Shown here: positions 3,081 through 30,290 of the stretch, one piece after another
How positions within the stretch are numbered: position 1 is the first letter of the stretch
Layout: each line of letters starts with the position of its first letter
Assembly (NCBI GenBank): GCA_032821775.1
Contig: JAVLRN010000017.1
Coordinates: forward strand, 124,001 to 188,000
Direction of reading: 5' to 3'
Length of the DNA: 64,000 nucleotides
Source: Sanguinoderma infundibulare
Taxonomy: Eukaryota > Basidiomycota > Agaricomycetes > Polyporales > Polyporaceae
The notes under the pieces: model-generated
What the model saw: the letters and a program-made list of their open reading frames with translations, nothing else
Told to the model about the DNA's origin: nothing
Database searches by the model: none
Made by a program: the position numbers and the translations under genes

Positions 3081-3086
3081 CTTCCA

Positions 3087-4330: not shown

Positions 4331-4383
4331 TGTCACCCTCCAGGGTGCCTGAGCGCACATAGTTACACCACTATATATAGGAC

Positions 4384-4430
4384 TTACCAGTTACCCGGCG
4401 GTAACATAACCCTGGGGTTGCTAGGGAATC
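4384..4430 (+). repeat. Left terminal inverted repeat of the KDZ element
   Basis: Pairs with the reverse complement of about 23576-23622. The identical core blocks are TTACC, GTTACCCGG or ATTACCCGG, GTAACATA and TTGCTAGG. Identity is about 75-80% by eye, with one small gap. Confidence 0.65.
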
Positions 4431-4730
4431 GGGCCCGGCCGGAATACCGCGTATCATAGGGTTAGGCAGGCCGGCCGGTCGCGTGCCCCAGTTAACCACA
4501 GATTGTCATGCTCATGTATCCTGACTGTCCAATTGTTGTAAATACATGCCCTCTATAGCGGTATTCACAAAAATGTACAACAAGTTCGAATTTACGCGGT
4601 CTAGGTGTACTGGGTGAAGTCACCGGCCGGAAAGCATCTACAGGGCAGAAGTATCTCGGCCGGTGGGTAAGGCTTATTACAGCTGATCCTCGGCCGGTGT
4701 AGTGAAGCAATTCCTTTCAGTTTCCGGCCG
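4430..4730. repeat. Left subterminal GGCCGG repeats
   Basis: At least six CGGCCGG or GGCCGGC-type motifs occur in about 300 bp (near 4437, 4471, 4623, 4658, 4691 and 4725). Similar clusters lie inside the right end. Repeated subterminal motifs of this kind are usual transposase-binding sites in large DNA transposons. The binding role is inferred. Confidence 0.5.
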
Positions 4731-4875
4731 ACTACTAAGCCTTGGTACCAAGTATTGTGAGTACCTTGCATTATGAGCACTGGCACACCCCCCAATCTCT
4801 TCCCCAACTGACAATATCATTGAATTTCAATATGCAATGGCGAGATACAATTACAACGAAACATAATGCCCAAAA

Positions 4876-6224
4876 TCACTCCTGTAGACTCTCCCATACT
4901 GTATCCACTGCCGTGACTCGCCGGGCCAGTGAATCTTGGTATGCTCGCCAATATTGTGGACCACTGGTGAAAGCGGCGCCATGCAACTGGCGAGCGATCA
5001 ATTCAGCCTCCGTCAGCCCTTCTATAGTAGCTGCAAGTATTTCTCGATCAGCACGCATGCGGGATAAGCGAGAATGTACCCCAGCTTGGGGGTCATGCGT
5101 CACCACGGCAGGCTCCTTAGCCTCTTCGCTTGGGGGTCCCAGGGACATGTTACCCTGGCCTGTAGATTCGATAGTGGGCACAGGGCGAGCTGCCGGATCA
5201 AATGGGCGAGTGGCAAAGAGACCGTGCATGTTGATCGGATCGTTCATCACTTCAGCAGGCCCCCTAGCCTCTTTGCTTTGGGATCTCCGGGATGTGTCGG
5301 TCTGAGACGGCGATTGAATGGGGGACATTGGAGGAGCTGCCGATTCGAATCCACGATTGGTGAACAGACCGTAGATCATCTCCGGAAACACCGACTCTGC
5401 CAGCGGCCCTATTCAACACAATTGCAATTAAATGTCAATTGGCCAAGTAGATCCAAAGTCCACTCACTCATGATTGTGATTTGGGATTCTTGGACGACAA
5501 GCGCACCGTCTGTCTGGTCATCTGACCACATCAGCTGGTCCTCGCTGAGCTCTCCCATTATTGGCAGGTCAAACGTAGCATCAACGGGCGAAGGGGACGA
5601 CGGCGGCTCGTCCTCGCTGAGCTCTCCCGTTATCGGCAGGTCGAACGTAGCATCCACGGGGTAAGGGGACGACGGCGGCTCGTCCTCGCTGAGCTCGCCG
5701 GTTATCGGCAGGTCGAACGTAGCATCGACAGGGGAAGAGGACGCCGGCAGCTCATCCTCGCTGAGCTCGCCGGTCATCGGCAGGTCGAATGTAGCATCGA
5801 CAGGGGAAGAGGACGCCGGCAGCTCATCCTCGCTGAGCTCACCGGTCATCGGCAGGGCAACGTCCATGCCGACGGTGGAAGGGGACGACGGCAGCTCGTC
5901 CCCGCTATGGGTGCCCGTCATCGGCAGGTCGATTTCGCTGCCGCCAGTGGAAGGGGATAATGGAAAGGGCACCACCGGCTCTCCGGAGAGTGGTGAAGAT
6001 GGATCAAATGACAATGAGGACTGCGACGGTGGTGCCGATGTGGGTGAGATGTCTCGTCGGCAGTCCAGAAATCCTGTCGTTGGATCGTGTTCTTGCAGCG
6101 GAAGCTGCTTGCTACGTTCCGGAGATGCTTCACCAATTATGCCGGCCAAAGATGGAGGTGTTTGAGGTGGAGTCGGAGACCTGATACGAACTTGTTTCAA
6201 TCCTGTATTAATTTCCAGTCGCAT
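4876..6224 (-). CDS. KDZ passenger protein with 24-residue acidic repeats
   Basis: Two exons (5468-6224 and 4876-5408) joined by a 59-nt GT-AG intron give 429 residues from an ATG at 6224. Residues about 115-240 consist of five near-identical 24-aa units of the type TGELSEDELPASSSPVDATF, matching a 72-bp DNA tandem repeat. They are rich in Ser, Pro, Asp and Glu and look disordered and acidic. The C-terminal exon (about 175 aa) is not repetitive. It has an alpha-helical look (RADREILAATIEGLTEAELI) and ends RVTAVDTVWESLQE. I do not recognise the family. It is the leftmost gene of the KDZ element and is transcribed outward, sharing a 494-bp bidirectional intergenic with the next gene. A role in DNA or chromatin interaction is only a guess. 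Confidence 0.6.
5555..5870. repeat. 72-bp coding tandem repeat
   Basis: Four to five in-frame copies of a 72-bp unit begin around CTCGCTGAGCTC on the plus strand. They encode the GELSEDE repeats of the minus-strand protein. The copies are nearly identical, so they arose recently or have been homogenised. Confidence 0.75.
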
Positions 6225-6718
6225 GAGTACATTTGATTTCGCAAATTAAAACTGTTAGCGCACCTTCGCTTGGGGCACGGGAGATGCTGCGGTTCCGCAA
6301 GACGGGTGCCGGAAATGTTTGTGATTGAGCTACCTGTTCAATATGACCTATCCGAAAGGGCTCAATGTAAATGTTTTACTTCAATATGGGCAAATTGACG
6401 ATCGTTACACACCTGCTGTAGGGTTTTTTGAGGTCCCCTGCCTGGACTCTCTGCCCCTAGCCCCCCCTCACCGTGATGATCCTGTAAATAGTTTCAGCAA
6501 CTGATAGACATTGGCAGCTCTCGATATACATTCCTTTCCTTGGTGCCATATGCCTCCGGGACCTGCGAGAGTTGTGATGAAGGTACCGGGACAGAATCGA
6601 TGGGCGCTAGTGTGCCACAACCTTTCCACTCGCGTTTTGCCGCTGATCTGATTGCGATCAACTGCCTTCATCCTCTGGCAGCTTTCACTTTTTTCGTATC
6701 AATGAGCTCACTATCACA
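6225..6718. promoter_or_regulatory. Divergent intergenic region inside the KDZ element
   Basis: A 494-bp gap lies between two divergently transcribed passenger genes and must contain both promoters. I see no clear TATA box or repeated operator. Confidence 0.4.
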
Positions 6719-7325
6719 ATGGCTGAAGCAGACGCAACAATGAACAAACAGCTGCCGCCCCCGAACAAACAACAGATCCAAACCATGCGCGAATATGCAA
6801 GCCGCCTTGAATATGCCTTCCGGTGCCGTCCCCCTGTCAACCACCGCAAACGGCGTTCTTGGCATGTCCATTTCCTGTCGGACTTTGCTGCCTTCCTCCA
6901 GGCTCTCGCAGTCGCAGATTTTCCGCGTATTCCACCATTCGCTGCTGGATGTATTTGGGCCAACAATCTTCGGCAGCATGCAGGAGAGATGACGTTCGAT
7001 CCAGAAACGATTACGTTCGCTGGCCCTGGGCATAAGGTGTACAAGAAGGGAGTACTCGGCCGCCTTAAATGGGAGCCCGCCGGTGAGGAGGGCGATCTGT
7101 ACGGGACCATTCCCGAGGATCAGCTGTATAACGTTTGGTGGGATCAGCATCGACACGGTACGTAGCGGTCAGACTGCATTGATCCTACTCTCGCTAATTT
7201 CTATGCTACATTTAGTGCTGAATGAGCCGCATCTGTCGCTCCCGATTAAAGCTGTGGAGAATGCGGAACGCTCCCGCCTGGCTGCCGCAGAAACGCAGAA
7301 TACAAAAACATCCCGCCATGCATGA
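6719..7325 (+). CDS. KDZ passenger protein, 182 aa, possibly 5' part of the next gene
   Basis: Exon 6719-7157 from an ATG, then a 58-nt intron, then exon 7216-7325 ending in TGA. The product starts MAEADATMNKQLPPPNKQQI and contains RSWHVHFLSDFAAFLQALAV and YGTIPEDQLYNVWWDQHRH. It is Trp-rich, with no motif I can name. The next exon (from about 7411, with a good TTTCAG acceptor) looks like a continuation of the same protein. However, no phase-compatible GT donor exists before the TGA at 7323-7325. Either these are two genes, or this copy has acquired a stop or lost a donor site. Confidence 0.5.
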
Positions 7326-7445
7326 CCGGCCACCAGCGGGACGATAGGGAAACAGGGTACGGGTCATGGCTTCGGCACTGCAGTGATTCACTACTTACAT
7401 TCTATTTCAGACACAATTGGCAGTGGTGCCACTGACGACGACGAG

Positions 7446-9869
7446 ATGGCCGTCGATGGCGGTGATCACGACACCGGCACCTCGAAACCGACATCGGCAC
7501 GTCGTGTTGACGCATCGATGGCCGTCCTTGATCGGGACACTTCCAGCATCACCGCTAGCGGGCGCATGTTGCGCTCGTCATCTCGCCAGACGGCCGCAGA
7601 ACCGGACTCAGATGGGGAGAGCGAAATCGATGTGGATGACGAGCCAGAGGCCGTCGGTACCTCGAAGAAGAAGTCGGGACATCACGGCCGCCAGCCCGCA
7701 AAGGCTGTGAATCGGAACCCGCCAACAGACAGCTCTGCCAGGCCTCGCTTGCGGTCCGTCTCTCGATCCAGAGGTGCCGGTACCTCTACTCCACGCTCCA
7801 CCGCTACTGTGCGTCCATCATCCACGAAGCCGCGCCCGAGACCTGCCGGAAAGGCTCAGTCCAGTGCCGGCACCTCCAGCAAGCCTTCCGGAAAGGTAGC
7901 GAAGACCCCGAATGAGCTCACGGAGGAGAATTCCGCAGGTGCCATCGTGCCGCGATCGGGGCAGCGAAGCAAGGGTCTTCGAACCTTGTACGATATTGCG
8001 CCGGAGCAAATTGAATTCCGATGGGTACCGCACGTACGTGTATTTGTCTTCTACCATGTGTTTTTGACTGATATATTATCAGCCGCGTCCATGCGAGCGG
8101 TGCCGGGGAAGGGACGAGCCGTGTCTTGTTATGCTGTTGATGTCTTCCGCTTGCAAGAGATGCCTATCTGCAAAGCACGGCTGTTCACTCGCGTTCAACG
8201 TCAAGATCGAGGTTCCTCTCGCGATTTATCTTGGGTTTGCCGTCTGGCGCATGCGTTCCTCTCCTGACCTCTATGAAACTCCAAATTTCTCCCCTACGAA
8301 GCTCCCGAAAACGTTTCCTGCCCAGGAAACATACAAGTGGTTTTCGAAGCAGTGGCGCGCGATTCCTCGGATGAAAGAGGCGAAAGCCAGTGCTCTTCGC
8401 GGAGCCACTCGACCCGAGGCTGCCGGTGATGCTCATGATGATGCTGAACAGTCTGCTGATGAGCCGGGACGTGGTTGCAGTAGTCGGGCAAGGAGGGGTT
8501 CAGTCACTCGGGCATCTCGTTCTCTGTCACGGGCACAATCACGCGATTTGACTACTCTTCCCGGCTCCTCTCGTGTTTCTGCAGAGCCGCCTCCGGCTTC
8601 TCCAACAACAGTATCCCGCCGCACATCACCATCGTCGGCAGGTCGCATGTCGGTCGACCGGGAGGATGCAGACGACGAGCTCCGACTTGCGGCAGATTCC
8701 GGGACGACTGGGACATCGCGTACGTCTCGTGCAGCTCTTCGAGGAGTGGCGCAGACCTCAAACTCGCGTCCCGGACGGTCGAGAAGATCGCGTGCATCCG
8801 TGCCAATCGTGGTACTCCCGACCAAGGTGGACGAGGCCACATTTTCTACAACGCTTCAGCGTGCCCCTCCTGCTCTCCCACTCAGGCACCGGAGCTCTGG
8901 ACCTGCCACTCGGACCGAGTGGACTGTCGGTAGCATCAAAGGTGCGATTTGATTGCACATATATCCGTTGGCAGCTTGCTGATCTTGCGCTGCACAGGAT
9001 CATGGAAGGATCTGCCGCGGGTGACGAAGGACATGTATCGTGGACTGTATCGAGTGGCCGACCTGCCGCATGCAGACGGAACCGCAAACGCGGCACTGAT
9101 CGTGCCTCGCATCAATCGCGATGGTTTCGAGATCCTGGACAGCCTTCGAATCCATCCAGCCGACCTGCCGGACGGGTCGGATGCGACTGATTTCCAGGCG
9201 TTCCGATTCATGGATCCCCTCGCGCAGATGATCGAGGCGACAAAAGCTAAATTCGATGAAATTGTCTCACTGGGTACCGCTCTCACGCGCGACGCCGTCA
9301 TGTTGCGACGAGAGGCCAGCATTGTTACCAACACTCGGAACGAGATTCACAGCACTGCCCTTGCATCGGAAGACGGCTGGGATGCTTATCATGGCTTGGT
9401 TCGATACAGCGACCTTCTCGGTGACCATCTCGTCAATGCCCTGGAGTCCATTGCGGCACTTCGCGACATCCTTGCTCGTTTCTCGGCAGCATTCTCGAGT
9501 ATCCCGCCAGTTCCGTTGAACTGGATCGCGATGCGGGACATGCTGCAGCTCGTCCAGGACCTTCGAACCCTATACGCAACAGCATTGGAGCGCATGCATA
9601 TGTTTGAGGAAGACTTCCGTCCTGTCCGGGAGCGGTTACGCCGTGTGCAGGTCCAGGTGGACCGCAATGAGGACGAGTTGGCAACGTTTGCGAACATGGC
9701 CGCCTCCACATGCGAGCCGATGGTGCGCAATCTTGGCCAGCATCTCGCCGGCAGCATCGCGCTGCTCGACAGCCGTGTGCGGCAGCTCGAGGGAGTGGAG
9801 ACAGAGGTGCCGGATGCCTCGCGCATCGGAGAGGAGGCAGAGGCGGAGGTCGTGCGGCAGCTCGAATGA
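7446..9869 (+). CDS. KDZ passenger protein with Zn2Cys6-like motif and coiled coil, prematurely stopped
   Basis: Exons 7446-8033, 8083-8941 and 8998-9869 splice in phase to 772 residues. After about 190 residues of Ser/Arg/Pro-rich disordered sequence comes the cysteine array CERCRGRDEPC, nine residues, then CKRCLSAKHGC. The spacing (C-x2-C-x6-C-x9-C-x2-C-x6-C) fits the fungal Zn2Cys6 binuclear cluster, so DNA binding is plausible. A second low-complexity stretch follows, then a long helical region with heptad-like character (SDLLGDHLVNALESIAALRD, RERLRRVQVQVDRNEDELA). A TGA at 9867-9869 ends the frame. The same frame then stays open for 178 more codons to 10406 with matching composition and a repeat of the preceding segment, so the full-length ancestor was about 951 aa. 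Confidence 0.6.
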
Positions 9870-10406
9870 GTGGAGAGCGAGGTGCCGGAAGCTTTTCGCA
9901 CAGCCGAGGAGGCAGAGGCAGAGGTCGCAGAGCTCGCGATGGAGGACGTGCCGGTTGCTCAAGGTAGAGAGGCTGAGGTTCCTGGACTGCGGGACGCAAC
10001 GGTTGGTGAACTTTTCAGCGTGGTCAAAGACTTGTCAGAACGTGTCGACACTTTGGAGCATGGACTTCCCCAGCATAACGAGGATGACATGAAGCTCGCT
10101 GTCTCGACATACCTCACAGAACGCAGTCTCTCAGACGACCTCCTGCGCGGACTCGCGGTGGCTCTGACCACTGGTACTGGCGATGCCCCCACAGGCAGCA
10201 GCATCAGCGTTGGGCCCCAGTCCTTCAATATCCAGGTGATCGCACGCCGTGGAGGAGAGCGTGAGGATGACGATGGTGGCGGATCATCATCGCAAGCAGC
10301 TCCTCCCGCTGGTGAGCAGCCGCCAGATCTCGGCATAGCTGCCTCTCCTTCTTCACCCAGACCTGTTGCTAGAGGAACGCGAGCTCGAGCTGCCGGAGGA
10401 AAGTAG
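9870..10406 (+). pseudogene. In-frame 3' continuation of the Zn2Cys6-like passenger gene
   Basis: Directly after the TGA at 9867-9869, in the same frame, the sequence continues VESEVPEAF and on to a stop at 10404-10406. Its first 28 residues duplicate the segment just before the stop (RQLEGVETEVPDASR). At the equivalent place the first copy has GGA (Gly) where the second has TGA. This indicates a single G-to-T nonsense change, unless the stop is edited or read through. Confidence 0.6.
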
Positions 10407-10571
10407 AGGATGCATAAAACGAAAGCGCTGTGTACAATGTACGTTACATATGGAGTGGTCGTGAATGTCTCTGGAATCAATGCCTTAGCGAATTTCTACA
10501 TGTACATATCTGAATGAGATGCTGAATACGAGGAAATGTGGTTGGAAAATTAACGGAGGGGGACGAGAGTT

Positions 10572-13547
10572 CTACGTAGCCGTTTTCTTCTTCTGCGTCG
10601 AGCGCCGCCTGGTGGCACCTCCTGCGGCTGCCGAAGTGCTCTCGGCAGCTGGCGGAGGTGCCGCTACCTGTTTTCCCTTCCCCTTCAACACTGGCGAATC
10701 GCGCGCAACATCTGCCGAATGCGTAGCCGACCCCAAGGCGTCAGAACAAGCCTGCAACACGATCACCCGATGTCCAACCACCAGGTTCGAGTTCGCCATG
10801 TAGTCCGGCAGGCGAGTCGTCTGCATGTTGGATTTCTGAGCCTCTGCGAGAAGCGACAAATCACGCAGCACGATGCCCAGGACGAGGCAGTAGCGTTGTG
10901 TGTCTGCCGGTCCAGCGGCGGCCTCAACGCCTCTCTTGATCCAGTTCAAGAGGGTCTCGACGGTCTTCGCAGACGCCTGCACGGTAGCCGGCACATGTGC
11001 GCCCTTGAACGCCCAGGTTCCCCAGAGCACGGGAGCTCTCGTGGGAATACCACAGAGCTGCTGGAGCTGAGATGTATGTCAGTGAGACTGTGTACCATGC
11101 AGCGATACCAACCGTACCTTGTCACCCATCCGCATGATCATACCTTGATAGTCCTGTTCATCGGACAGCCCAACAAGAAATTGGTGGCGCGCATACGCAT
11201 TGTAGCCTACGGCCGTTGGTGTGAGCAGTGGAAGGGTTTGCGGCTGTTCCGGACATGTGTTGCCTCTTGCGTCCGTGGTCGCAGCGTCGAAGCTGTCACT
11301 TTGAGCCTCTGGGGCGTTGAATGGTTCGGGATTGGCTGCACGACCTGCATAACCAGCCACAGAGTCGGTCTCAGCAGAAGCCGACACAGCGGGAGCTTGA
11401 ACGCGCTGTGGATCGGATGAGGGAACGGATGGATGAACGGGAGAGGTACGGTTTCCGAGAGAGCCGACATCAGCAGCGGTTGCGGTGCCGATTGTAGGGA
11501 GTGTGCTCACCAGTGATCCGAGATGATCGGGAGCAGGAGCTGAAATCCGAGAGACAGTGGGGGCACGAGCAATTGGTACCAGTTGCTCGACAGGGAGAGA
11601 GGCAGGTAGGATGTCCCCGATGCTCTCACCATCGCTCACCATATCGTCTGCACCCTCCAGCAACCAATCTTCCACCTCGTCATCGGACACCTCCGGCTCG
11701 TCTGCGGCATCCGGAACAAATGAAGGGTCACCGTCGTCATCACTTTCTTCAGCATTCTCGGTCGCGGCAGCATCCACATCAACTTCGGAAGCGAGCCACG
11801 GCCGGGGTCCGCTGTTGTCCCATCCGGAGGCCTTCATCTGCCGACGCGGCCGTGATGGTCCAGGCGTTGGAGGGGGTGCCGGAGAAGAGCTCGCTCTCTC
11901 TGCCTGAAGCGCAGCCCGGACCTTTTCGATATCCATGGAGAGGGCACGCTGGACTCGTGATCCGACATCCGGCACGGTTGGCTGAGATGGCGCAGGGCTG
12001 CCGGGAGCGTTCGACGGGCTTCCGGGAGTGTTTGATCGAGTGTTGTCGCCAGCGGCAGGGGGACCGGTCTCGAAGTCAGGAACACGAACCACTTTTTTCG
12101 TGCGCCGAGTTTCCGAAGCGGCTTCGAAGCTGCCGGCATACACGGCAGGGATGTAGATGCGATGGGTGCGGGGGCCAGACTCGTAGTGACTGAAGCAGAA
12201 GCGGCGGGGAGGGGTGTCCAGGTCAAAACGATCGGGAGCTTCCATTCGGATGACATGGTTGAAGAACGCGAGAAGCTCCGGCTCGTTCAGTTTGCTTGGT
12301 TCTTGAAAGCTGAACCCTTCCGGCAGCATACCAGGCTCGAAGAAGGACACAGGATGCTGCCCCAATGACTGCCATGGCGCTGAGCGCACCTCCCGCCCAG
12401 TCGCGTGACCTGCATTGTGTCGGTGAGACAATACATGGCGGGGAAGGGCATGTCGAGCACGTACTGTAGTGTTGCTTGAAGTATTCCCGGAATATGTCCT
12501 GCCGACGGCTGTTCAGAACGCCGTTGCCGTTCTCCTCGTTCACCAGGATAGGAGTGCCGTCTGCATATAATGCGAACTGAAAGGGGGCTGCACGAACGCG
12601 CTTGATTCCTTTGATGAACTCGAGCGTATCGGGCTCAGCAAGGTCGGGACGGAGTGCTGCTTGAAAGAACGTCCATGCCTGCCGGTGAAAGTCTTTGTCC
12701 CATCCCGGCACGTTCCGAAACAGCGGCGAACTGCTGTCAGACTGATTCCAGAGCTGGAACGTGTCGTAGCTATCGGAATCCGTATGTCAGTTTGTATTGC
12801 AAGCTGCCGGGACATCGATAGACTTACACGGCAGCACGCATCTTGCCATTCGTATCCTCGAACATGCCATAGATGAAGATCGGCATGTTGCACTGTTCTA
12901 AAAAGAGGCTTGCGACGGCACGCATCCACGATGGTGCCCTCCTCTCAGCCATCCTGATAAATGTACCGGGAGGGTCAGGCTGGCGGCATGCATGGGCAAC
13001 TGTGAACGTACATTGGCTTCAGATCCTCGTCTGGACCCTGCTGACTCCAAAGCTCGGCCAACCTGTAATAGACCAACTGATCCTCTGCTGAGAGCTGAAG
13101 CCACAGGTTTCGGCAGGTCGCGTTCCAGGCGACAATGTATGCGCGATCGTTGGGATCGCCGCTCGATTGTTCCTCGCCCAGTGTCTGTCGAATGAGGTCT
13201 GCGTTCTTCATGCCGAAGACACACTGAGGATGAAAGGATTGGTTGATGCGGAGTGGAAGGCGAACGCGCTTGCGAGTGTCGGCGTTGTTTTGGAACCAAT
13301 TTCGCACCTTCTGCTCTGCGGAATCAGCAATTTGTGAGCGTACTCCAGGAAAAAATGGACATACGGCAACAAAGAGGTCAACAATGTAGACGTTGGTGGA
13401 GTCTAGATTGCGGCTCTCGATGATGACCTTGGCACACTCCTCGCGGAGAGCTTCCTTCCCGGCCGCTGCTGTGTTGCGATAGTCGATGAGGCGCGAGTTG
13501 AGATACGTCTCATCCGCATTGGACAGATCGCTAGGGCGCGGAGGCAT
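10572..13547 (-). CDS. KDZ passenger protein, 917 aa, unknown function
   Basis: Five exons (13012-13547, 12828-12953, 12465-12769, 11118-12409 and 10572-11066) with 51-58 nt introns sum to 918 codons without a break. This is strong evidence for a real gene. The N-terminal third looks globular (IIESRNLDSTNVYIVDLFVA, LWLQLSAEDQLVYYRLAELW, FIYGMFEDTNGKMRAAVYD). Next comes a 400-residue acidic Ser/Pro-rich linker (SDDDGDPSFVPDAADEPEVS). The C-terminus is compact (QLCGIPTRAPVLWGTWAFKG) and ends in a basic tail (ATRRRSTQKKKTAT) that could be a nuclear signal. The start is the ATG at 13547, because the frame upstream lacks an earlier ATG. It is divergent from the TET/JBP gene across about 350 bp. 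I do not recognise the family. Confidence 0.65.
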
Positions 13548-13899
13548 TGGCAAAAGTTACAGCTGGATTAGGAGGTCAGAGAGAATACTAGCCGGAAGAC
13601 AACATAATCAATATGGAATGGACGTACAGACGTGCCACTGAATAACGGCTCGTAGGATACTGTGGAGGGTGCGTGCCGCCTGTCTTTGAGTCAAATAGCG
13701 GAGGTCAGAGCGGTTGCGCTGGGTGCCGACACAGGGGGAGACAAGTGAGACATACGGTGGTGGCAGAGAAATGAAGCTGGGCGTAAGGGAACGGCGGGAA
13801 AGGTGCTCTGCCGGTCTAGCTTTCGTCGGATCGAGGGGGTAGGCTAATAAATGTCGCGCTGTTCCGTGCAACTAAGTAACTGTATTTGGTAAGTGGATA
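13548..13899. promoter_or_regulatory. Divergent promoter region between the 917-aa gene and TET/JBP
   Basis: 352 bp separate two ATGs on opposite strands, so this stretch must carry both promoters. No obvious TATA pair is seen. Confidence 0.4.
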
Positions 13900-15669
13900 A
13901 TGCCGGCCGGGTGCACAGCTTTCTTAAGCGATCAATCAAATCATGTTTTCGGCTATTGGGATCCTCTGAATATCCAACTTCGCCCCAAGTGCGCATTTTC
14001 GCAGCTGTTTGCACGGTCTCCTGTCATGGACAACGTACTCCACACCCCATCTGCCCAATTCCAATGCCGCGCAGCGACTGCACAGTTTATAGTCGACCTC
14101 GAACAGTATTTCACAAAGCACGGTGATAACATAACGCCCCACCAGCAGCTCATTTCGCAATGGCCCTTGCCCCCTGATCACCTGGATCGAGTTGCGGTGG
14201 ACGACTGCCGAACCGTCGCCTTCACGCTGTCCAAAGCCCGCTCCAATCAATGTATGTATCTGATTCATTCCGATAGCACTGTTCACACTGATTTCTTCCA
14301 GATTCCGTGAATTGGGATGCAACGGCGTATGCCCATGAGGTCTCCCAAAAGGTCATTCCTGACCTGGAGGTGGAGAATCGTCTGATGCAGAAGTATGAAC
14401 CGCTCATCGGCGTCGAGGAGTTCCATGCCCGATGCGACTGGAACCTTCCGTTGGTCGTCGACCCAGCCGTCTTTACAGATAAGAATGGTCGAGTTCTTGC
14501 CTGGTCGCTCCCGAACGTTCTCTCCGAGAATCGGCAGGTATGTATTACGTTGCGGCAGCTGCACCGGGGGTGCTGATCATCGGAAACAGCAAAAGATATT
14601 AAAGACGACGCGGATCCTTGAGGCTCAGCTGACAATCAAGACGGCGGAAGCCAACCAGCCGATCATGAAAGGATGGCGCACAGCGGACACCTTTTTCTCA
14701 AAAGGGGCCGAATGGGACTCGGGGACGGTTCTACTCTATCCAGCGGGGTTTCAGCAAGGGCACACGGTACGACCGGCAGCTGAAATTCATTTCCGGCACC
14801 TACTGATCTCCACAACAGGGTCAACGCTTTGATCCGGCACCTAGCATGGACGTGCGGTCAGCCCGAGCTTCCGACTGGATGCTGGACTTTGAGGAGTCTG
14901 GCGGTATCCTGGACGGGATCCTCGCGGTAGCTCATCCAGAACTATACGAGGCCAGCCAAGACCTGATGGAGCGGTGTGTCATGAGACACGCATCTTGCGC
15001 TTCCCTCATGGCCACCTGGCCCACGACTTTCACATCTGTGCAGATCATTGTGAATCGCTCGACTCTCCGCCACCGCGACACCAGTGCGATGCCAGGTTGG
15101 CTCGACCTGCTGCTCACGCTCGGCAGCTACGGTGAGACAGGTATCTTTGAGATTCGTAATCTCGGCATCTCGCTCCCGTACGGTTCCGGCTCCGTGGTTT
15201 TGCCAACCTCGAGGCTTCTCATTCACGGCATTCCGAATGTGCTGAAGGATCGCATTGCATACGCGTTGTACATGAACAAGGCCGTGTACGAGTGGTTCAA
15301 GGTGCCGATGGTCGGCACAACGCAGCTAGCCACATCCGGTGAGTCCTTCGTTGGCTGAGCCGGTCCACATGATTCACCTCCTGTTCAGAGAACGCAGACG
15401 TTGTGGATGACGTGCCGAGCGGAGCTGGACCACACGCGGCAGATCAGCAGGACCTCCCGGCACCCATCGATAAGGGAAAGGGCAGGGAAATCGAACCGCC
15501 GGCTCCCATGGCACCGGCAGCTGACGGGAGAGGGGATGGAGGTGCCGGTGCGGAACGCGATGAGCCGATGGACGAGGAGTCTGATCTGACGGAGGAAGAG
15601 GAGTCAGATCTGACGGAGGAAGAGGAGGATGCAGATGGCGAAACAGACGGCAATGACATGGAGGAGTAG
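13900..15669 (+). CDS. TET/JBP-family 2-oxoglutarate/Fe(II) dioxygenase
   Basis: Exons 13900-14251, 14302-14537, 14590-14766, 14819-15338 and 15389-15669 join in phase to 521 aa. The family oxidises 5-methylcytosine or thymine in DNA using Fe(II) and 2-oxoglutarate. The core in exon 4 shows the double-stranded beta-helix landmarks: NRSTLRHRDTSAMPG with the metal-binding H-x-D, WLDLLLTLGSYGE, the strand GSGSVVLPTSRLLIHGI with the distal metal-binding His, and DRIAYALYMNKAVYEW with the Arg expected to bind 2-oxoglutarate. Upstream, GGILDGILAVAHPELYEA matches the helix that precedes the core in fungal TET/JBP proteins. The C-terminal exon is an acidic low-complexity tail (ESDLTEEEESDLTEEEEDAD). 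All expected catalytic residues are present, so the enzyme looks functional. It lies 70 bp upstream of the KDZ transposase on the same strand. Confidence 0.88.
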
Positions 15670-15739
15670 AGTACCAACACGGCATCAAACATTTGTCGCT
15701 CCCCATCCCCCTGCGCGCGCCACTGTCTATGATACTGTG

Positions 15740-18700
15740 ATGGCTAGACGACGATTCTTAAATGCACCTACTGGCTTTGATGAGATCACGGTGGGTACTC
15801 GAAAGACGAAACGGGGAGTTCAGATTGTTACAAAGAAATCAAAAGTACATTTCACCGCGCCCGAAGCCGTGCGCGAGCTGTCGACATCGACTTCCCGCCG
15901 TACACCGCAAGAGGCTGCCGAAGCCCCGCCCCCAGCAGCTATCGATGACTACAGCGAAATAACACTGGAATCACACATACGTCCTCAGCGCAAAGGGAAG
16001 GTAAGGAAATACTTTTATGAAATAATACGCTAAGCATTGACATCGCCGGGACGTCCAGTCGCAAAACGATTTCCAGCGCGAGTACCTCATCGTCCAAGAT
16101 GAATACATCGACCGGCAGCTCATGCTCGAGGCTCAGCCGCCCGGGGGAGTTGGAACATGTGGTCATCAAGCCCTCTGGAGGTGTCTGACATGCCATGCGA
16201 CACCGACCTTCTGCAGCAGCTGCTGCCGTGACGCTCACCAGTCTCATCCCCTTCACCGCGTCGAATTTTGGGGCGGCACATTTTATAGACCAGCATGGCT
16301 ACGGCAGCTCGGACTCCAAGTACACTGTGGCCACCGCGGTGCGCGGTGCCCCGCGTTAGGTGCATACGACACTGCCGAAGAGCAGCAGCCGCGAGTTCCT
16401 TCCATTGTCGATGATCTGCCGTCCCTAGATCCCGCCAGGCAACCACCCACACCGTTTCCCTTCCTCCCCCTTGCCGAATCCGTAGCTACCGACGATGAAG
16501 ATGGGAATGAAGACGATGAGCTGCCATACCTGGAGGAGGAGCCTGACTCTGAGATGGAAGATGAAGACAGCGACTTCTACCTGGGTTCTGGTGACACTCT
16601 GTTGCCTGAGGTGTCTGACCTACCGTGGGTCGGTGAAGGCCCTCGCCGTCCTGCACCGAGCACCTCGCCTGCTGCCTCTGCATTCTACAGCAATGACCGG
16701 ATGATCGTCGTTGTTGACACGGACGGAGTTCATGAGTTGCCGTTCACCTTCTGTGCTTGCGCAGCTGCCGAATGCCAGGACTTTCAGCTACTCGATCTCG
16801 GCTACTATCCCGCCTCTATCACTCAGCCAAAGACAGTCTTCATGACTCGCGTTCTCGACGATTTCTTGCTCGCAAACAAGGAATGCAAGACTTCGGCACG
16901 AAACTACTACAACAAGCTTCGTCGGACAACCAATGCTGCCTTTCCCCATATGGTGCCGGTGTGTTGCCCAGACCCTCGTTGCATATAATGGATTGAAACG
17001 CTGACAGACAGTGCTAGGATCGATACAAGGAACTGCTCCGTGTATCTCGTCAATGGCGCAACCAGCAGATGCGGAAGCTGGCGGGTTTTGCTCACCGGCA
17101 GCAGGCGATTGGGCCCGGCGATTTGGCAGTGCGTTGTCCCGCATGTCCCCAGCCAGAGGTCAACCTACCTGAGTCATGGCGAGATGATCCTGAACAGTAC
17201 ATCACCTACTCCTCCTCTCGGCTGATTGTGATCCTCATTTGATTAGATGGAAGTACACCCGATCCGTCGTTCTCGATGGCAATTTCAGCGCGCAACATCG
17301 GCACATGCGAAATCCTGAGGATGACGTTTCCTTTGCCGATGGACACGCCTTCATGGTAACTGATGCACCGTACAAGCAACACCTCAAAACTGCAACTGAA
17401 TACCAAGAGGTGCGTCACGTAGTCGCATCGGCTGCCTCGCCTAGACGTTAAGTGAGATGCACTGTCTTGGGCAACTCAGAAGTCAACATGCAATGATCAC
17501 CGTGCAGTGCTGAATGCAACCGTCGACCACGCAAAGCTGGAAGCTACCGGGATTGGCGCGGCAGCGTGTTCTAGGCATGGCTTTTTCGCCCCACACGCAT
17601 CCGTCGACTTCCAACAGGGCGAGCGGTATGCATCTATGAATTCAGGAATCGTTCTGACAGCCACACTAACCTGCCGATAGCCAGCGGAACATGGACTACG
17701 TACTTAACTGGGTCCTCGCATATCTCAACGGCCTCACCCGCATTCTCGTCCTCTATGACATTATGTGCCAATATTTCATTCATTTGTACGCCAGGTTTGA
17801 GAAGAGCCCGTCGCTTCACATGCCCGAGGGCCTCACATTCCTGCGCGGTATTGGCCAGTTTCACGTCCATGGGCACATCCCGCAATGCTTCCCTCGCTTC
17901 TCGTGCAACTTTGTCGTTGGAGCCGGTGTCCAGGATGGTGAGATATTGGAGACACTATGGAACAAGGTCAATGCGATCGCAGATAGCACCAGGGGAATGT
18001 CGGCAGCACACCGTCGGGAGGTCATTGACGACCACATGAACGACTCCAATTGGATGAAGGTCACCAGAATTAGTAAGCTACGTATGACCCCATAATTTTC
18101 GGCAGCTTACTGACCATCGTATCAGCCGCACTACTCACTCGGAAGTGGAAAAGGGCATGCCAACAATGGAAGCCTGCAGTATCCGCATTCGAGAGCCTTG
18201 CGGCAGCTACCGATGCCACCAAATGTACCGAGTGGAAGGCTGAGGCTGATGCCACAGATGCCGAACGATTGCGGGACCCATCAGCGATGGACATCTATGC
18301 TGTCTCATCAAATCCTTGTGAGTAGTTCGAGGTACACTGTGAACGAGAAATGAATTTTTGTCAATAGTGCCGACGAGGAAGGAGGTGCAGGTCATGCTTG
18401 CACAGGAAGAGCTCACCGATGCTGGGGCGTCCGATGAGACTCTTGGAGCTGCGGACTGGATTGCACATGGGCTGATGATTGAGGAAACAAAGTAGGTTTC
18501 TGAAGCGTGCCGAAAACGCACACTAATGACAGTGTTTCAGACTTGCGATTGCTCACACCGCTCATTGCACCAAGGACAGTGCCGGCACCCAGGCAAGGCT
18601 GTCACTCGTGCAAAAACGGCAGCACCTCGCTTCCGCTATTAGCGCATTCCACAAGACGGGACGGAAGCATCTGCCGGGCCACCTACCGGGCGATGGCGGA

Positions 18701-19471
18701 GTCCTCGGTGCAGATCTCACGATGTTTGGTGACGAATGGGATATGCATAACGTCGTCGGTGAGGCCATCCGAGAGCTGCCGGCAGATCGTCCTGAAACCC
18801 ATCCAATTGGTCTGCCGTCCACGTTCGGAATCGACTTCCTTGCTCAGAATGATATGCTGGACCTGGCAAAGAAGGAGCGGCAGCTCCGTGAAGGTCAGCT
18901 CAACGACGCCCTACAGGGAATACGCACTGGAATCGGGTACAAATCTCTACTGTACCGCGCTAAGGTCCGTAACGCATCATCATACCGGGCGAAATTGCGC
19001 AGCTTCGACGATGTCCACGTTGCCGACGAGGGAGTCCGGAAGCACATCCGGGTCTATCAGCAAGCTCGAGCAGCGATGGGACGGCTATTCTATCTTGACG
19101 ACCCTGAGGATGCGACAGCATTCGAACGCTTCCGAACAACATACAAAGACATCAAGAAGGAAGATCTGAAGACGACAACCGCGGTCATGGAATCCTTTAC
19201 ACCTGGGCTTCGCAACGAACATTCGGCCTGGTTCTGGAACATCTCAGACACTGAGTCTGGAGAGCAGAGTACGTGGATGCGAGACTGTGAGTCGATCGTG
19301 GTACCGATATACCATTACAAAGCACTTACCAAATCCACAGACCGTCGCATGCTGTGGCTTCGGGCATATGCTCGTAAGTCCCGATGGGATGAAGAGGTTG
19401 TCCTGGTGCCGTTTGAGATGGACTGCACGGTTCGCACATTCGAACGGAAGGCTGCCGATTGGGAGAAATGA
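15740..19471 (+). CDS. KDZ (Kyakuja-Dileera-Zisupton) transposase
   Basis: Ten exons (15740-16000, 16059-16958, 17018-17196, 17247-17409, 17480-17625, 17681-18072, 18126-18317, 18368-18491, 18541-19268 and 19341-19471) sum to exactly 1072 codons. The N-terminus carries the CxC2-like cysteine cluster found with KDZ transposases (CGHQALWRCLTCHATPTFC, SSCCRDAHQSHPLHRVEF). It is followed by an acidic linker and the HELPFTFCACAAAECQDF block. The catalytic region has KYTRSVVLDGNFSAQHRH with the first Asp, STCNDHRAVLNA, EATGIGAAACSRHGFFAPHA, LVLYDIMCQYFIHLYARF and VHGHIPQCFPRFSCNFVVGA with GVQDGEILETLWNKVN. The C-terminus ends in the usual RAYARKSRWDEEVVLVPFEM helix. No frameshift or stop is seen, so this is potentially an active transposase. 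In-frame codons extend 5' of 15740 but overlap the TET/JBP end, so the first internal ATG was chosen. Confidence 0.9.
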
Positions 19472-19904
19472 AGCACAACAGCTAAAACGCCGGGTCACTT
19501 GGCGTATGCTCACCGGCAGGTCTCAATGTGGCGCAGTCTCAAAGACCATGCGGTCGGAGTCTTTTCTAGTGCACGGAGTAAATACGTACCGTAGAAAGCA
19601 GTATGTTAGACCGTCTTCGGAAGCATTGACTGGAATATTGAGTGCATGAATAAGGTGCCGCAGACGGCCATAAATCATGGATATGACGAGAAACGCTGCC
19701 TGCAATGAAATCCTGGCACTTACAATCGTAATAGCGGAATTAGCATCATTTTGGGCAGCCTTGACTGAGACAGAGTGCGGCAGTGAGGTGCTATGGTCGG
19801 TGCCTCATTGTTGAATGCCATGTGACGCTTGGCCCGGGCCGGGACGGCTACAATACCATTATGTACCTTCGGCAGCGAAGCTTGCTATCCCAAAAGCCGC
19901 CATC
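19472..19904. other. Intergenic within the KDZ element
   Basis: 433 bp between the transposase stop and the next small gene. No coding signal is seen; presumably terminator and promoter. Confidence 0.4.
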
Positions 19905-20676
19905 ATGATACCGGCACCTCAGAATCCCGCTGGTGCCCCGTACCTCAACGTACGCGGTACGGCACGTCTTGAAGTGCTCCTCATTACACGCCGAATCTCC
20001 TCTGCGCTGCAAGCAATGCCGCAACCTCCAAATGACCTCACGATACGTCGATGGAACCACGGAATCGGTCGGGAGATGGTACGCACTAAATCTAAGAAAC
20101 ACCTCGGTTTGGTGTTGATATACACTCTAATGGTTCCGGATTTATTTGTAGTGGACGGCGATGTGCGCGATCGGTCTCACAGCCGCAATGGAGATGACAC
20201 TGGCAGACTACAATACCGTCGAGCGTGTGTGGTGCAAACCACTCGCGTATCTCCTTCGGGCCTCTGTTTGGGAGAACCGTCGGCTTCACATCGATGTCGG
20301 CAACATCAACTTTGCAATGTATCAATGCCTTGCAACATTCAACGAGCAGGTTTTCCTCGGTATGGAGGACTCATGGATCTATCCGCAGTGGTGGACGTGG
20401 GCAGAAGATGGGCCTGGTCAGGGACACCGCACTCCCGGGTGGTGGATTAACCCTGCTTCAACTGTCGTACGTCGACACGATCCCATTTCAGAAGATACCA
20501 GTGCTGACGCGCAACAGGGCGCCCCGATTCCTATTTTTGAGTCTGACAGGGACGACCTCCGTGCGCTCGCTGGTGAGGTGTATTTGTGTATTGGTCGTAT
20601 CGTTGAGGAGAAGGAGGAGGAACGGCACAGACTCGATGTTCGCATCATTGAGGAGGAGATGGAGCTTAGTCGGTAG
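19905..20676 (+). CDS. Small KDZ passenger protein, 232 aa
   Basis: Two exons (19905-20078 and 20152-20676) with a 73-nt intron sum to 233 codons. The N-terminus (MIPAPQNPAGAPYLNVRGTA) is basic and Pro-rich. The centre has RRLHIDVGNINFAMYQCLA and a Trp-rich patch (MEDSWIYPQWWTWAEDG). The C-terminus is a charged helix (EEKEEERHRLDVRIIEEEME), probably a coiled coil. I do not recognise the family. It follows the transposase on the same strand and precedes the repeat-rich right arm. Confidence 0.55.
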
Positions 20677-20756
20677 GCGGATGCACTTGCTGTTTCCGTG
20701 CACCAAGATTTCGATGTACAACAAGCACCCGAACCAGTAGAATGTATCACCGCGTT

Positions 20757-20950
20757 ATTGTTCAGCCCTCAGACGTTAGCGCTATAAAACAGTTGTTGGT
20801 GCCGAAGCACTGACCACGTGCTGGAAAGGCTGCCGTCGAGTTGATCAAAATGTAGACCCATCTTACTGTTCAGCCATCACACTTGAGTGCTATAAAACGG
20901 TTGTTGGTGCCGAACCACTGACCACCGGCTGCGACGGCTGCCGCGGAGTG
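20757..20950. repeat. Direct repeat of about 109 bp, two copies
   Basis: Units start near 20757 and 20866. They share TGTTCAGCC, GCTATAAAAC and GTTGTTGGTGCCGAA, and CACTGACCAC. GCTATAAAAC is a TATA-like stretch in both units. Non-coding, at the start of the element's right arm. Confidence 0.65.
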
Positions 20951-21444
20951 AATCTATGGATATTCAAGGACCGGCAGTAGAACACTCTGGTCGAAATCGT
21001 GTCCGCCATCGGCGGTCAACGAATGAATAAAACGGCGATACTACACAGTAATTATCGTCGTCAAAGCGGCCAACGAATGGCCGTGGCCCACGGCGTAGAC
21101 CCTGAAGTGTAATACTTGAGTCAATTAATTCTCCCGGCACTGCTCTCGTGGTACTGCTCCTGCGGCAGCTCCGTCCCCTGTAGCTCCGGTCCACCCGAGG
21201 TCTTTGCGGCAGCCCGCTAGCGGCAGCTAAGGCACCTTCCGAGGAAGTCGAGCATGTCATGCCCGATACGTAAATTATGTACCGGTAATGCTAGAATGAG
21301 AATAGTAATGAGCGTAGTCCCAAAACAGAGAAGAAACCTACTTACATCTTCTATGACCACCGTGGTAGAGTGGGACCGTGTGACTGCAATTAGACCTCAG
21401 CTTGCAAGACTAACCTTGCATAGTCTCACAAGCTGATGACTAAT

Positions 21445-21538
21445 CCACTGCGGCAAGGTAGGCCATACCACTGCGGCAAGGTAGGCCATACCACTGCGGC
21501 AAGGTCGGCCATACCGCTGCGGCAAGGTAGGCCACATC
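21445..21538. repeat. 23-bp tandem repeat, four copies
   Basis: Four head-to-tail copies of CACTGCGGCAAGGTAGGCC-type units. The last two differ by single bases. Confidence 0.75.
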
Positions 21539-21635
21539 GCGCGGGCGTGCCCCAGCAGCACCGCGACTACTGCGGCGATGGAGGAAGCCTCCCGGGCCTA
21601 CCCATACATGGTCCTGCTTGAGCATAGGATAAATT

Positions 21636-22190
21636 CACATTGACTAGAAGGTTGACTCATGCAGTACACTTCAGGGTCTACGCCCTAAGCCTTGTATGAT
21701 CCGCGGGGGTTGAGCCAAAGTCCGAAAACGAGAAGAGGGCTAGAGGCCCTTACACTCGGGACAGCCTCCCGCGGGCTAGGCGAGTAGCCGTGTTCGGACG
21801 GGGACGATGGCTGCAGTGAGCAGCCGGAGGATGAGGAAGGCCGTGGACACTGCCAAGGAAGGGAGCTGCCGGGGTGAGACCCGAGCTAGACCACAGCTGC
21901 CTGGGAGAAGGCTGCCGCAAGAGCACTACCGCGAGAGCGGTGCCTGGAGAATCTAAGACATTTGAATCAGCATTGGCTCAGTTCACATTGACTAGAAGGT
22001 TGACTTACATTGTACACTTCCGGTTCTACGCCCTAAGCCTAGTACGACCCGCGGGGGTTTGCGTGGACGTGCGAAGGCGAGAATAGAGCAAGAGAGAATT
22101 TACACTGAGGATTGCCTCAGATGGGATAGGCGAATAGCCGTGTTCGGCAGGCAACGATGGGCTGCGGTGAGCAGCCAGAGTACTACCTTA
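21636..22190. repeat. Direct repeat of about 200 bp, two copies
   Basis: About 21636-21835 and about 21981-22190 share TTGACTAGAAGGTTGACT, TCTACGCCCTAAGCC, CGCGGGGGTT, GCCGTGTTCGG and GAGCAGCC in the same order and spacing. Confidence 0.65.
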
Positions 22191-23229
22191 GCTGCCGCAC
22201 ACTTTTTATACTATTCTGGCATGGATAGTACCATGATGAGATTGGAGAGAGAGATTGGGGGCAGTGGACAATGGCTGCCGCTCGAGAGCTACCGTCGAGA
22301 TCTGCGGTAGACTACAGCTACCAGGAGAGAGCTGCCGCAAGAGTGCTGCTGCGAGAGAAATATTGTCTAAAGCTACCGTCGAGACCTGCAGTAGACTGAA
22401 GCTACGGGGGAAGAGCTGCCGCAAGAGTGCTGCCGATCAAGCCTAGCTCCCGTTGAGAGCTACCGTCGAGACCTGCGGTAGACTGCAGCTACCGGGGAAG
22501 AGCTGCCGAGAGCAACGCACGGTAGACGGCAGCTACCTGAAGAGCTTCCGCAATAGTACTACTGGGAGAGTGCTGCATGGAGAGAGCTACCGCGAGAGCA
22601 CTGCCAGGAGAGAGATGCCGTGAGTGACAGATTGGATAACTAACAGCCGGCAGCTAACGCAGCTGCCGCAGACTTGATATGCTGCTGTGCGACCTGTGAT
22701 GCGATGGTGAGATTGGAGAGAGAGATTGGGGTCAGTGGAAAGCGACGTCACAGCTGCCATAAAGTCAGGCTTTCAATGTCCAATGAACGGCAGCCGGGAT
22801 GGCTGCCGTGGACCATACTTTGGTTTCGGGAGTTTGCGGTGGCTCAGGCCGCTGCTATGGAACGGTTGTTGGCGCAGAAATGAATCCGCGGGTCACGGGT
22901 GGGACCTGAGGATGTTGAGACGCGTGTGCATGACTCCAGTACTGACATCTATGCTGCGTCCGGGTGATCAGTGATGTCAACAAGATAGAAATGTGCCAAA
23001 TACAAAGTGCTCCCACTGCAAACCTTCCGGAAAGAGTCAATACCCCACACGCGCAATCTATGTCAACCACTGTACCCAAGGTAGGGTATTGATAAGATCG
23101 ATTTGGGGAATCGCAGGTGGTGTTGTGTATGAGATATGTGACATACAATAAATAATACACATGTATTAATATGTTGTGGACAAACCGAAGCGTGTGGGGG
23201 TTCGTGGACGGTCGTACAATTGAGACTTA

Positions 23230-23575
23230 ACCATGTCGCCGGCCGGCTGGCAAGAGCTTGGAGGGCAGCCACCGGGCCGGCTAGCAAGCACTGGTATAAT
23301 GTCTCACGGCCGGCTGGCAAACACTGTGATGTCATTTAACTGTCTACAGAGCTTGAAAACAAGAGCAACAATAGTATACCTCTGTTTTACATATGTAACA
23401 GAGTTTTTAGAATGAGGAATCGCACACAGGACCACTGGGGAGGTATCTGCGTTCATAACCGGCCGGTCAGCATAGCCACCTATAGACGCCGACCGGCCGG
23501 GGCGCTAAATGCAGCCACATCGGCGCGCCCGGCCCGGTAGCAAAGGTGGCTATGATGTGGGTTCCGGCCGGCGCC
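23230..23575. repeat. Right subterminal GGCCGG repeats
   Basis: Three GGCCGGCTGGCAA or GGCCGGCTAGCAA units lie at 23.24-23.32 kb. More GGCCGG motifs follow at 23.46-23.57 kb. They mirror the cluster inside the left end. Confidence 0.55.
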
Positions 23576-23622
23576 TGCTGCCTAGCAAAGCCGGGGATAT
23601 GTTACAACCGGGTAATAGGTAA
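23576..23622 (-). repeat. Right terminal inverted repeat of the KDZ element
   Basis: The reverse complement aligns with 4384-4430 (see the left repeat). The outermost shared block is GGTAA at 23618-23622. Confidence 0.65.
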
Positions 23623-24795
23623 TATAAGCAATTGTGATGGAATGGTCTCCTGAGCGAGGGAGAATTAGCGCAATAATGATGGGCGTGGGGATGTTATGCA
23701 CAAATGTACTTCTTTATGTTATCCGCCACAGCATCGACAGAGATGCGGGCCAGCGCAACTTGCGGTTCGGTAGCCTTCGGCCCGTGGACCACGTGGAGAA
23801 GGCGCTTAAGCTGTGGCCGTCCAAGCGTTGGGATTGGCAACTTCGGCCAGCCCCTGCAACTCTATGTCCGACCTTGCATCCACACCGCCATTGACTTGGA
23901 GAGCAACTTGAACAGTCAATAGTACTACAACAGCTGCTAATAACCCCGTGGGTTTTCCCTTAGTTCAATTGCAATCAAAGATTTTGTCAACTTAGTGATT
24001 CCGCTTGCCAAGTTGTTCCAGGCACTCTGCAGTGTGCATGCACCGCTACTTCCAAGGCACGCTTGCTTGTTTGAGGTGAGTTTAAATGCTATGCACGTGG
24101 AAAATTCATTGTGTTTATTCTTTGGAAGGTAGGAACCCATACGCCCAAGTTGTTGGGGACGATGCCAGTGTCGTGAGAACTACAATACACCTCAATATTC
24201 CAGAAATCCCTAGCTTCTCGGTCCGAGAACGGCGGTCCCGACACTTCGAGGACGCAAGTTGTCGTCGTCTGCCGCTGTTCAGCGCTGGCCTCCTGTACTG
24301 CATTGAATCACTGCCCGCAGAAGCTCTACGGCGGTTCTCTTACTTCAAGTCTGGGTCGTCGGCCAGCGAGTTGTAGCAGCTCAAATCCTGCTGATGCAGA
24401 TGCAGCCACTGGCGTACCGGATGCACCAACTTCCCAGACGTTAGCACCCAATTCAACAGCCAGGGCATCCCTACTCGGCACTTACGGGGCGCAACACGTC
24501 CGCGCCGCCTGCGGAATGAGTTACGAAGGAAGCTACTTACGGACAAAGCTCGTAATCTCGGCTCAATCAAGCTCCAAGTCGGCCTCTTTCACGAGTCTTG
24601 GAAGTATATCGAAGAGTCTGGGACGGTCCGACTGCCAGATCGGGTTCCCGTCGACGTCGGCGCGGCGCCCGCTTGGAACCGGGGCCAGGGCACCAGAGCG
24701 TCTGCGGCTCCCATCGACGTCAGCTGGCTAGCCGACCTGAACGAGGTTGCTTCCAGAGGGCCTATCGTTCTGAAAAAGGCTGTAGGTACATATAT
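23623..24795. other. Intergenic between KDZ element and GMC gene
   Basis: The first about 120 bp (ATGTTATGCAC...TATGTTATCCG) resemble DNA just upstream of the 416-aa family gene at 35.33-35.39 kb. They therefore continue the flank of the decayed copy on the far side of the transposon. At 24.5-24.8 kb a plus frame reads plausibly (KLLTDKARNLGSIKLQVGLF, then WLADLNEVASRGPIVLKKA) but has no start that I can place. It may be the end of another decayed gene. Confidence 0.4.
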
Positions 24796-29267: not shown

Positions 29268-29400
29268 ACCACGAAACTTGAAGACACACCGTCATGAGCA
29301 ATCAGATCTTGTTAATCCAACTGATTACGCACCAGATCTGGACTTCACACAGCAATGAGCACGTAGTCTCAAAGAGAAAAGAAGATTAAAAAAGGCGTAC

Positions 29401-30089: not shown

Positions 30090-30290
30090 CACTACGCGCC
30101 CCAGAGGTCGGGATAAGTACGATGAAAAGCAGGGGTAATCGCATTTCACGATCATAGGTCGGGGCTAATTCGGACTGGTGGAAAGTTCGGAAGTTTTACG
30201 ACATAGGGATAAATCAAGGAAACATGTACATTTTCGCCACCATATTTGCCGCCGAGAGATTCGAGGAATACATGGCGATTATGGCGACTA

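Follow-up and report, generated by a model that had tools for sequence, protein, structure and literature searches.

The window, a 64,000-nucleotide stretch of a Sanguinoderma infundibulare contig, holds a complete basidiomycete KDZ-class transposon with 7-bp target-site duplications, in which a TET/JBP dioxygenase, a transposase and four passenger genes are inherited together and whose inserted copies decay by CpG-to-TpG mutation, a reading to which we assign a probability of about 0.97. TET-carrying KDZ transposons and CpG hypermutation in Ganoderma are already known; the exact ends, the shared gene set and the unmutated tips are added here. With five near-identical full copies, an open TET gene, likely DNA-binding companions and largely spared tips, the question of anti-silencing becomes directly testable.

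Extent, ends and copies

The features of the window copy are given below.

4349..4355, left target-site duplication CTGAGCG
4356..23649, whole transposon, 19,294 bp, with tips 5'-CACATAG...GGTCTC-3', where identity between the five aligned copies stops
4384..4444, + strand, left subterminal inverted repeat, starting 28 bp in from the left end of the element
4435..4729, left GGCCGG/CCGGCC cluster, 10 sites
4876..6224, - strand, gene1, 429 aa predicted, exons 5468-6224 and 4876-5408
6719..10406, + strand, gene2, 1,156 aa predicted, exons 6719-7157, 7216-7356, 7411-8033, 8083-8941 and 8998-10406
10572..13547, - strand, gene3, 917 aa predicted, exons 13012-13547, 12828-12953, 12465-12769, 11118-12409 and 10572-11066
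13900..15669, + strand, TET/JBP dioxygenase, 521 aa predicted, exons 13900-14251, 14302-14537, 14590-14766, 14819-15338 and 15389-15669
15740..19471, + strand, KDZ transposase, predicted 1,098 aa in the window copy and 41 aa longer in the other copies
19905..20676, + strand, 232-aa gene, predicted, exons 19905-20078 and 20152-20676
20741..22600, stretch dense in short direct and inverted repeats, outside all gene models
23239..23571, right GGCCGG/CCGGCC cluster, 11 sites
23562..23622, - strand, right subterminal inverted repeat, starting 27 bp in from the right end of the element
23650..23656, right target-site duplication CTGAGCG

Four further copies of the element, ~98.5% identical, lie in the same genome beyond the window. 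Both tips are common to all five copies, the left tip being present also in a diverged relative on C8, and each copy is flanked by its own 7-bp duplication: CTGAGCG in the window, where the original prediction had called for a target-site duplication to be sought, and GAACGCC, GGAGTCT, ATGGGCT and, for the C7 copy, CCGCTTC elsewhere. The boundaries had been predicted at 4384 and 23622, but identity between copies stops at 4356 and 23649, with the duplications adjoining, and these are the true ends. The inverted ends that had been noticed are present as a 61-nt repeat (4384-4444 against 23562-23622, 77%) that begins 27-28 bp inward, the extreme tips themselves not being inverted. The mirrored GGCCGG repeats were likewise borne out, with GGCCGG/CCGGCC, counted over the outermost 405 bp on the left and 450 bp on the right, reaching ~24-25 per kb, against 0.38 per kb in the interior of the element and 0.60 per kb at 24000-64000.

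Differing boundaries or a gene order that is not conserved had been named as grounds for abandoning the idea of a single mobile unit; the tips agree in 5/5 copies and the order is kept in diverged families (see below). That the genes belong to the host and are enclosed by unrelated repeats through chance is accordingly a negligible prospect, contradicted by five copies with identical ends and their own target duplications as well as by the conserved order, and we rejected it.

Genes carried by the element

The dioxygenase matches the Tet_JBP domain (PF12851) at 50.1 bits against a cut-off of 34.9, and its reading frame is open in all five copies, in agreement with the unbroken enzyme originally described. 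It belongs to the same family as CcTet of Coprinopsis cinerea (7vpn, 8jkk; E ~1e-18), to which it is distantly related. Residues of the Fe(II) site fall within the alignment: the HxD motif, HRD in both proteins, and the distal His, in LLIHG here and LVLHG in CcTet. The position of CcTet Asp337 is conserved (residue numbers from PMC12730594). The element's TET is a candidate 5mC oxidase.

The transposase carries a KDZ domain (PF18758, E=8.3e-48, 163.4 bits against a curated cut-off of 26.6) and a CxC2 domain (E=2.8e-21). The original prediction of an unbroken 1,071-aa KDZ transposase holds as to the domain; the protein, at a predicted 1,098 aa, lacks its last 41 aa in the window copy, owing to a stop that is private to it, and the other four copies read on to a predicted 1,139 aa.

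Besides TET and KDZ there are four passengers, of 429, 1,156, 917 and 232 aa. Those of 429, 917 and 232 aa were modelled as separate genes, as predicted, whereas the proposed 182-aa and 772/951-aa proteins are fragments of the single 1,156-aa gene2. In the window copy this gene is interrupted at codons 183 and 978 by premature stops, neither of which occurs in C2a or C2b, and at codon 183 all four other copies read through; alignment with a 1,090-aa relative from Ganoderma covers 93% of gene2, and we rejected a separate 182-aa passenger on the strength of this continuity. The Zn2Cys6 pattern is C-x2-C-x6-C-x5-12-C-x2-C-x6-8-C. Cysteine spacing of this type occurs in 3/3 gene2 relatives and in 0/20,000 shuffles. 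Against the Pfam library no family was recognised for the window reading frame at E<=1, and none for P0011, so we label gene2 Zn2Cys6-type rather than a member of that family.

In gene3, HMG- and GTF2I-like regions weakly resemble known DNA binders, and a homeodomain is possible on modelling, the homeobox match arising in one of two structure models (7.8 A) that share one alignment. A profile search of solved structures with gene3 returned four weak matches (best E 0.026), with no HMG-, GTF2I- or homeodomain-type DNA-binding domain among them. Gene2 and gene3 are likely DNA-binding passengers. The occurrence of their relatives points to a polypore close to Ganoderma as the probable host. Gene1 contains a 72-bp in-frame repeat whose copy number varies; its relatives were found only in the family of the window element and in the C8 relative. 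For the 232-aa gene, relatives at 28-30% identity occur in other TET families, and in a protein search none of 338 candidates reached E<=0.001.

Gene order in other loci and known relatives

There are 29 Tet_JBP matches. At 16 of these loci gene3 (located by its first 443 aa) lies 1.7-2.8 kb upstream on the opposite strand and KDZ 2.2-2.9 kb downstream; at 15 of the 16 the gene2 N-terminus (first 182 aa) is found upstream, at 7.2-8.7 kb in 14 cases and 18 kb in one, and at 15 the 232-aa gene is found 4.7-5.4 kb downstream. The full set gene2-gene3-TET-KDZ-232aa thus recurs at 15/29 TET loci belonging to diverged families, once with the last gene inverted. In a second TET family homology extends through most of the stretches compared, and for the other TET families, among them two with 7 and 3 copies, the evidence is the co-linearity of genes. 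Exon pN/pS against other families was 0.18-0.76 in 39/39 comparisons, which covered 17 of the 19 exons.

KDZ elements are reportedly found with an additional, divergent HMG-domain protein (Iyer et al. 2014, PNAS), which gene3, with its HMG-like region, would fit. The window element further has a GTF2I-like part in gene3, gene2 and the 232-aa gene. Zisupton makes 8-bp duplications; those of the window element and its copies are 7 bp long, and extending them to eight would bring in a mismatch for the C2b and C7 copies.

The closest known counterparts are the TET+ Kyakuja elements of Agaricomycotina, Polyporales included (Kojima 2025, PMC12730594), through which the KDZ-TET/JBP linkage that the original prediction took as given in basidiomycetes is already documented. 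Kyakuja is described there with a 7-bp target-site duplication, 5'-CA..TG-3' tips and no terminal inverted repeats. The window element resembles it in joining KDZ and TET/JBP, in its 7-bp duplications (5/5 copies), in its 5'-CA tip and in retaining the CcTet Asp337 position, and differs in its 3' end (...GGTCTC in 5/5 copies), its subterminal inverted repeats and GGCCGG clusters, its conserved extra genes and an Ala at the position of CcTet Gly331, for which PMC12730594 gives Gly or Ser. As the 3' tip is TC rather than TG, we class the element as Kyakuja-like only. The main text of PMC12730594 has no occurrence of HMG, passenger or subterminal, and the function of transposon-borne TET enzymes is, according to the same paper, not experimentally validated.

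The CpG scar and the spared tips

Across the five copies, 653/711 C>T/G>A changes fall in CpG context, and the body of the element is heavily scarred by CpG-to-TpG changes in every copy although the TET gene is open in each. TET has therefore not kept the body of inserted copies free of methylation-type damage, which speaks against a simple form of the original suggestion that the dioxygenase may remove silencing methylation from the element, and the occurrence of this damage independently in all copies implies methylation despite TET. The changes mainly postdate the last shared copy, since 627/678 variable columns are 4:1 or 3:1, that is, private to single copies. Among gene models (the 232-aa gene excluded, and gene2 taken as two parts without the intervening piece) we counted 285 nonsynonymous, 203 synonymous and 8 stop CpG transitions against 299, 186 and 11 expected, and no purifying selection on internal genes after insertion was detectable.

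Assembly base-calling errors at modified bases would also concentrate in CpG context, but such errors should recur at identical k-mers in all copies, and the 3:2 columns number 47 against ~50 expected from independent hits by arithmetic from the observed rate; the same CpG pattern is, moreover, described for Ganoderma TEs (PMC4457147), which leaves this explanation highly improbable. We also rejected strand-clustered, RIP-like bursts (adjacent same-strand changes were no commoner than in shuffled data in 5/5 copies) and a TCG-type hypermutation context (per-base rates of 6.1% for ACG, 3.8% for CCG, 3.9% for GCG and 2.7% for TCG).

At both ends of the element ~300-400 bp are largely spared: in five copies of one family the terminal 300 bp hold 2 CpG mutations against 15.4 expected, and the terminal 400 bp hold 6 against 20.0. 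This would be consistent with demethylation, or some form of protection, that acts at the ends only; there are other explanations as well. We tentatively propose, at somewhat short of even odds, that the transposase acts at the GGCCGG-rich ends and that TET, aided by gene2 and gene3, counters methylation there rather than element-wide. The transposase would bind both subterminal regions and mobilise the element; the sites contain CpG, and host methylation could block them. By oxidising 5mC, TET would lower methylation at the ends and at promoters close by for long enough to allow expression and transposition, with the likely DNA binders gene2 and gene3 assisting by binding the ends. The body, meanwhile, would be methylated and decay. 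Anti-silencing would then matter at the ends, and the enzyme would not be a whole-element demethylase.

Methylation might instead stop short of transposon borders beside unmethylated genic DNA, irrespective of gene content, with TET working elsewhere, weakly or not at all. We regard this as rather unlikely; the deficit of CpG mutations is indeed greatest within 300-400 bp of either tip. The sole unrelated insertion compared (5.1 kb) has too little CpG in its outer 300 bp to serve as a control for the ends. Selection in cis, by which continued cut-and-paste movement is restricted to copies whose ends still function and the tips look protected with no local role for TET, is in our judgement unlikely. 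It would accommodate both the few changes in the tips and the decay of internal genes free of detectable purifying selection, as in trans-complemented copies, but with changes mainly postdating the last shared copy it needs every copy to keep moving.

A narrower form of our proposal, in which gene2 and gene3 bring the self-encoded TET to the CpG-containing GGCCGG arrays, so that methylation is erased exactly at the transposase-binding sites and the rest decays, is speculative and doubtful. If true, a single mobile unit would combine sequence-specific anti-silencing with active oxidative demethylation. VANDAL/VANC transposons are not known to carry a TET gene. Although of another transposon class and host, the window element would, as proposed here, share with VANDAL/VANC of Arabidopsis (PMC5735166, PMC10398659) an element-encoded, sequence-specific protein that counters the element's own silencing.

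The transposon as a mobile unit

The unit, mobility and gene set of the transposon are established. Using its left end as query against the genome containing the window (48.9 Mb, 87 contigs), we recovered at least five near-identical loci, including the window copy (C17), and at least one diverged locus, C8. The window copy, two copies on C2 (C2a and C2b), C9 and C7 align at ~98.5% mutual identity, compared over 19.2–19.3 kb for three of the other copies and over ~16.7 kb plus the right end for C7, which is interrupted by a 5.1-kb insertion. All five copies share a left tip, 5'-CACATAG, beginning at window 4356, and a right tip, GGTCTC-3', ending at window 23649; their 7-bp flanking duplications are site-specific (CTGAGCG, GAACGCC, GGAGTCT, ATGGGCT and CCGCTTC). 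The C8 relative has the same left tip. TET-carrying KDZ transposons with a 7-bp duplication are a known kind, described in PMC12730594. The original prediction set the ends at 4384 and 23622, which are real as the outer ends of a 61-nt inverted repeat (77% identity) lying 27–28 bp inward of the tips, and are not the tips themselves. GGCCGG/CCGGCC sites number 10 in the left 405 bp and 11 in the right 450 bp, versus 7 in the 18.4-kb interior.

Splice-aware models, compared across the five copies, predict six genes from sequence alone.

Predicted genes of the transposon (strand, length)
gene1, reverse strand, 429 aa
gene2, forward strand, 1,156 aa
gene3, reverse strand, 917 aa
TET (TET/JBP dioxygenase), forward strand, 521 aa
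KDZ (transposase), forward strand, 1,098 aa in the window; 41 aa more as read in the other four copies
232-aa gene, forward strand, 232 aa

None of the five copies has all six genes intact. The window copy has gene2 disrupted at two points and an early transposase stop absent from the other four. In C2a, gene1 carries a stop. In C2b, gene3 carries a stop and has lost a splice donor. In C9, both gene3 and KDZ contain stops, and gene2 has a 1-base gap. In C7, gene2 is disrupted by the insertion and a stop, and gene3, KDZ and the 232-aa gene each contain stops as well. The TET frame is open in 5/5 copies, which is not significant, as only ~1 stop is expected. An in-frame 72-bp repeat in gene1 (window 5452–5955) varies in unit number among copies (+1, -1, +4). 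The C7 insertion (L037:3222–8315) has one further full-length copy at 99% on another stretch of the genome, L062, and many partial matches; its first 300 bp contain zero CpG.

A gene cassette at TET loci

Genome-wide, we found 29 Tet_JBP and 87 KDZ matches, counting exon pieces separately. At 16 TET loci, comprising the five near-identical copies, the C8 relative, a seven-member family and a three-member family, gene3 lies 1.7–2.8 kb upstream on the opposite strand and KDZ 2.2–2.9 kb downstream. Of these 16, 15 additionally carry the gene2 N-terminus upstream on the TET strand, at a distance of 7.2–8.7 kb in 14 and of 18 kb in the C8 relative. The same 15 have the 232-aa gene 4.7–5.4 kb downstream, in TET orientation at 14 and reversed in the C8 relative; at the 16th locus, matches to both genes are only distant. 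Gene1 was detected solely in the five-copy family and the C8 relative, and the remaining 13 TET loci are without the gene2-gene3-TET-KDZ-232aa set. Compared with other TET families, pN/pS is 0.18–0.76 in 39/39 exon comparisons, with dS saturated or nearly so in many of them and gene1 represented by a single comparison, so the passengers seem to be maintained by selection on transposing lineages. Among public proteins, we found 10 gene3 relatives in 7,997 scored candidates, every one from Ganoderma, and 1 gene2 relative in 7,987, from G. leucocontextum. The contig carrying this gene2 relative matches in length the one carrying gene3 hit P0002, and the two may be one contig. From these relatives the host is probably close to Ganoderma.

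Five further loci (whole genome, G000, C12:81386, C10:363559, C3:3972227, C2:4724729 and C18:207423) show a second architecture, pairing a Tet_JBP match that has a 137-aa open frame with a KDZ match 18.8–19.3 kb away, and at two more of eight such loci the distance is 16 and 25 kb; this arrangement may be a further TET+KDZ element of larger size. At C3:4098091 and C17:434693, two weak Tet_JBP matches have open frames of 257 aa and no KDZ within 45 kb among the matches listed; they are possibly host TET-like genes.

CpG mutation in the copies and at their tips

The four uninterrupted copies differ pairwise at 287–303 sites, two per pair being non-transitions. C>T or G>A accounts for 711 of the 729 derived changes, and 653 of the 711 fall in CpG. 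Variable columns split 4:1 (568), 3:1 (59), 3:2 (47) and 2:2 (4); the 47 columns at 3:2 are near the ~50 expected under independence, which speaks against systematic base-calling error. Because we found no strand clustering of changes, and because contexts rank ACG > CCG, GCG > TCG, plain deamination of methylated CpG would be a better fit than a TCG-type or strand-wise process. The footprint is not peculiar to this transposon, since CpG-type changes also mark the seven-copy TET family (210/275), the three-copy TET family (277/345, one pair) and the unrelated 5.1-kb insertion (53/54 differences transitions, 45/54 at CpG). Published work describes methylation and CpG-biased mutation in Ganoderma sinense transposable elements (PMC4457147) and CpG hypermutation in Tricholoma matsutake (PMC6980582). 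Cytosine-methyltransferase matches in the genome number four. The element retains a near-expected CpG content (0.98), so CpG loss seems slower in the transposing lineage than in settled copies.

Mutated sites per CpG base amount to 660/15,132 (4.4%) in the interior, 3/230 in the left 405 bp and 7/300 in the right 450 bp (Fisher p=0.003), a deficit of few events with end limits picked post hoc. Ranked from the lowest rate upward, the two ends take the first two places among 64 windows of 300 bp, 48 of 400 bp and 32 of 600 bp, and places 1 and 4 among 42 windows of 450 bp. Adjusted for context, the terminal 300 bp have 2 observed changes versus 15.4 expected, and none of 20,000 random draws of interior pairs was equally low; a rotation test preserving clustering gave 7/1,593 (300 bp) and 10/1,593 (400 bp). 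This deficit is compatible with targeted demethylation, with an edge effect and with selection acting on the ends; an anti-silencing mechanism of the element is a proposal. We found no description of tip-limited CpG protection, or of the five-gene order, in the literature listings searched; Iyer et al. 2014, the likeliest source, was outside that search.

Older repeats in the window have a weaker CpG pattern. Other repeats, at window 27733–35290, 41458–51527 and 2945–4125, have stretches in common, including DNA immediately left of the element, and the two closest repeat pairs in the window differ chiefly by transitions (19/19 and 38/42).
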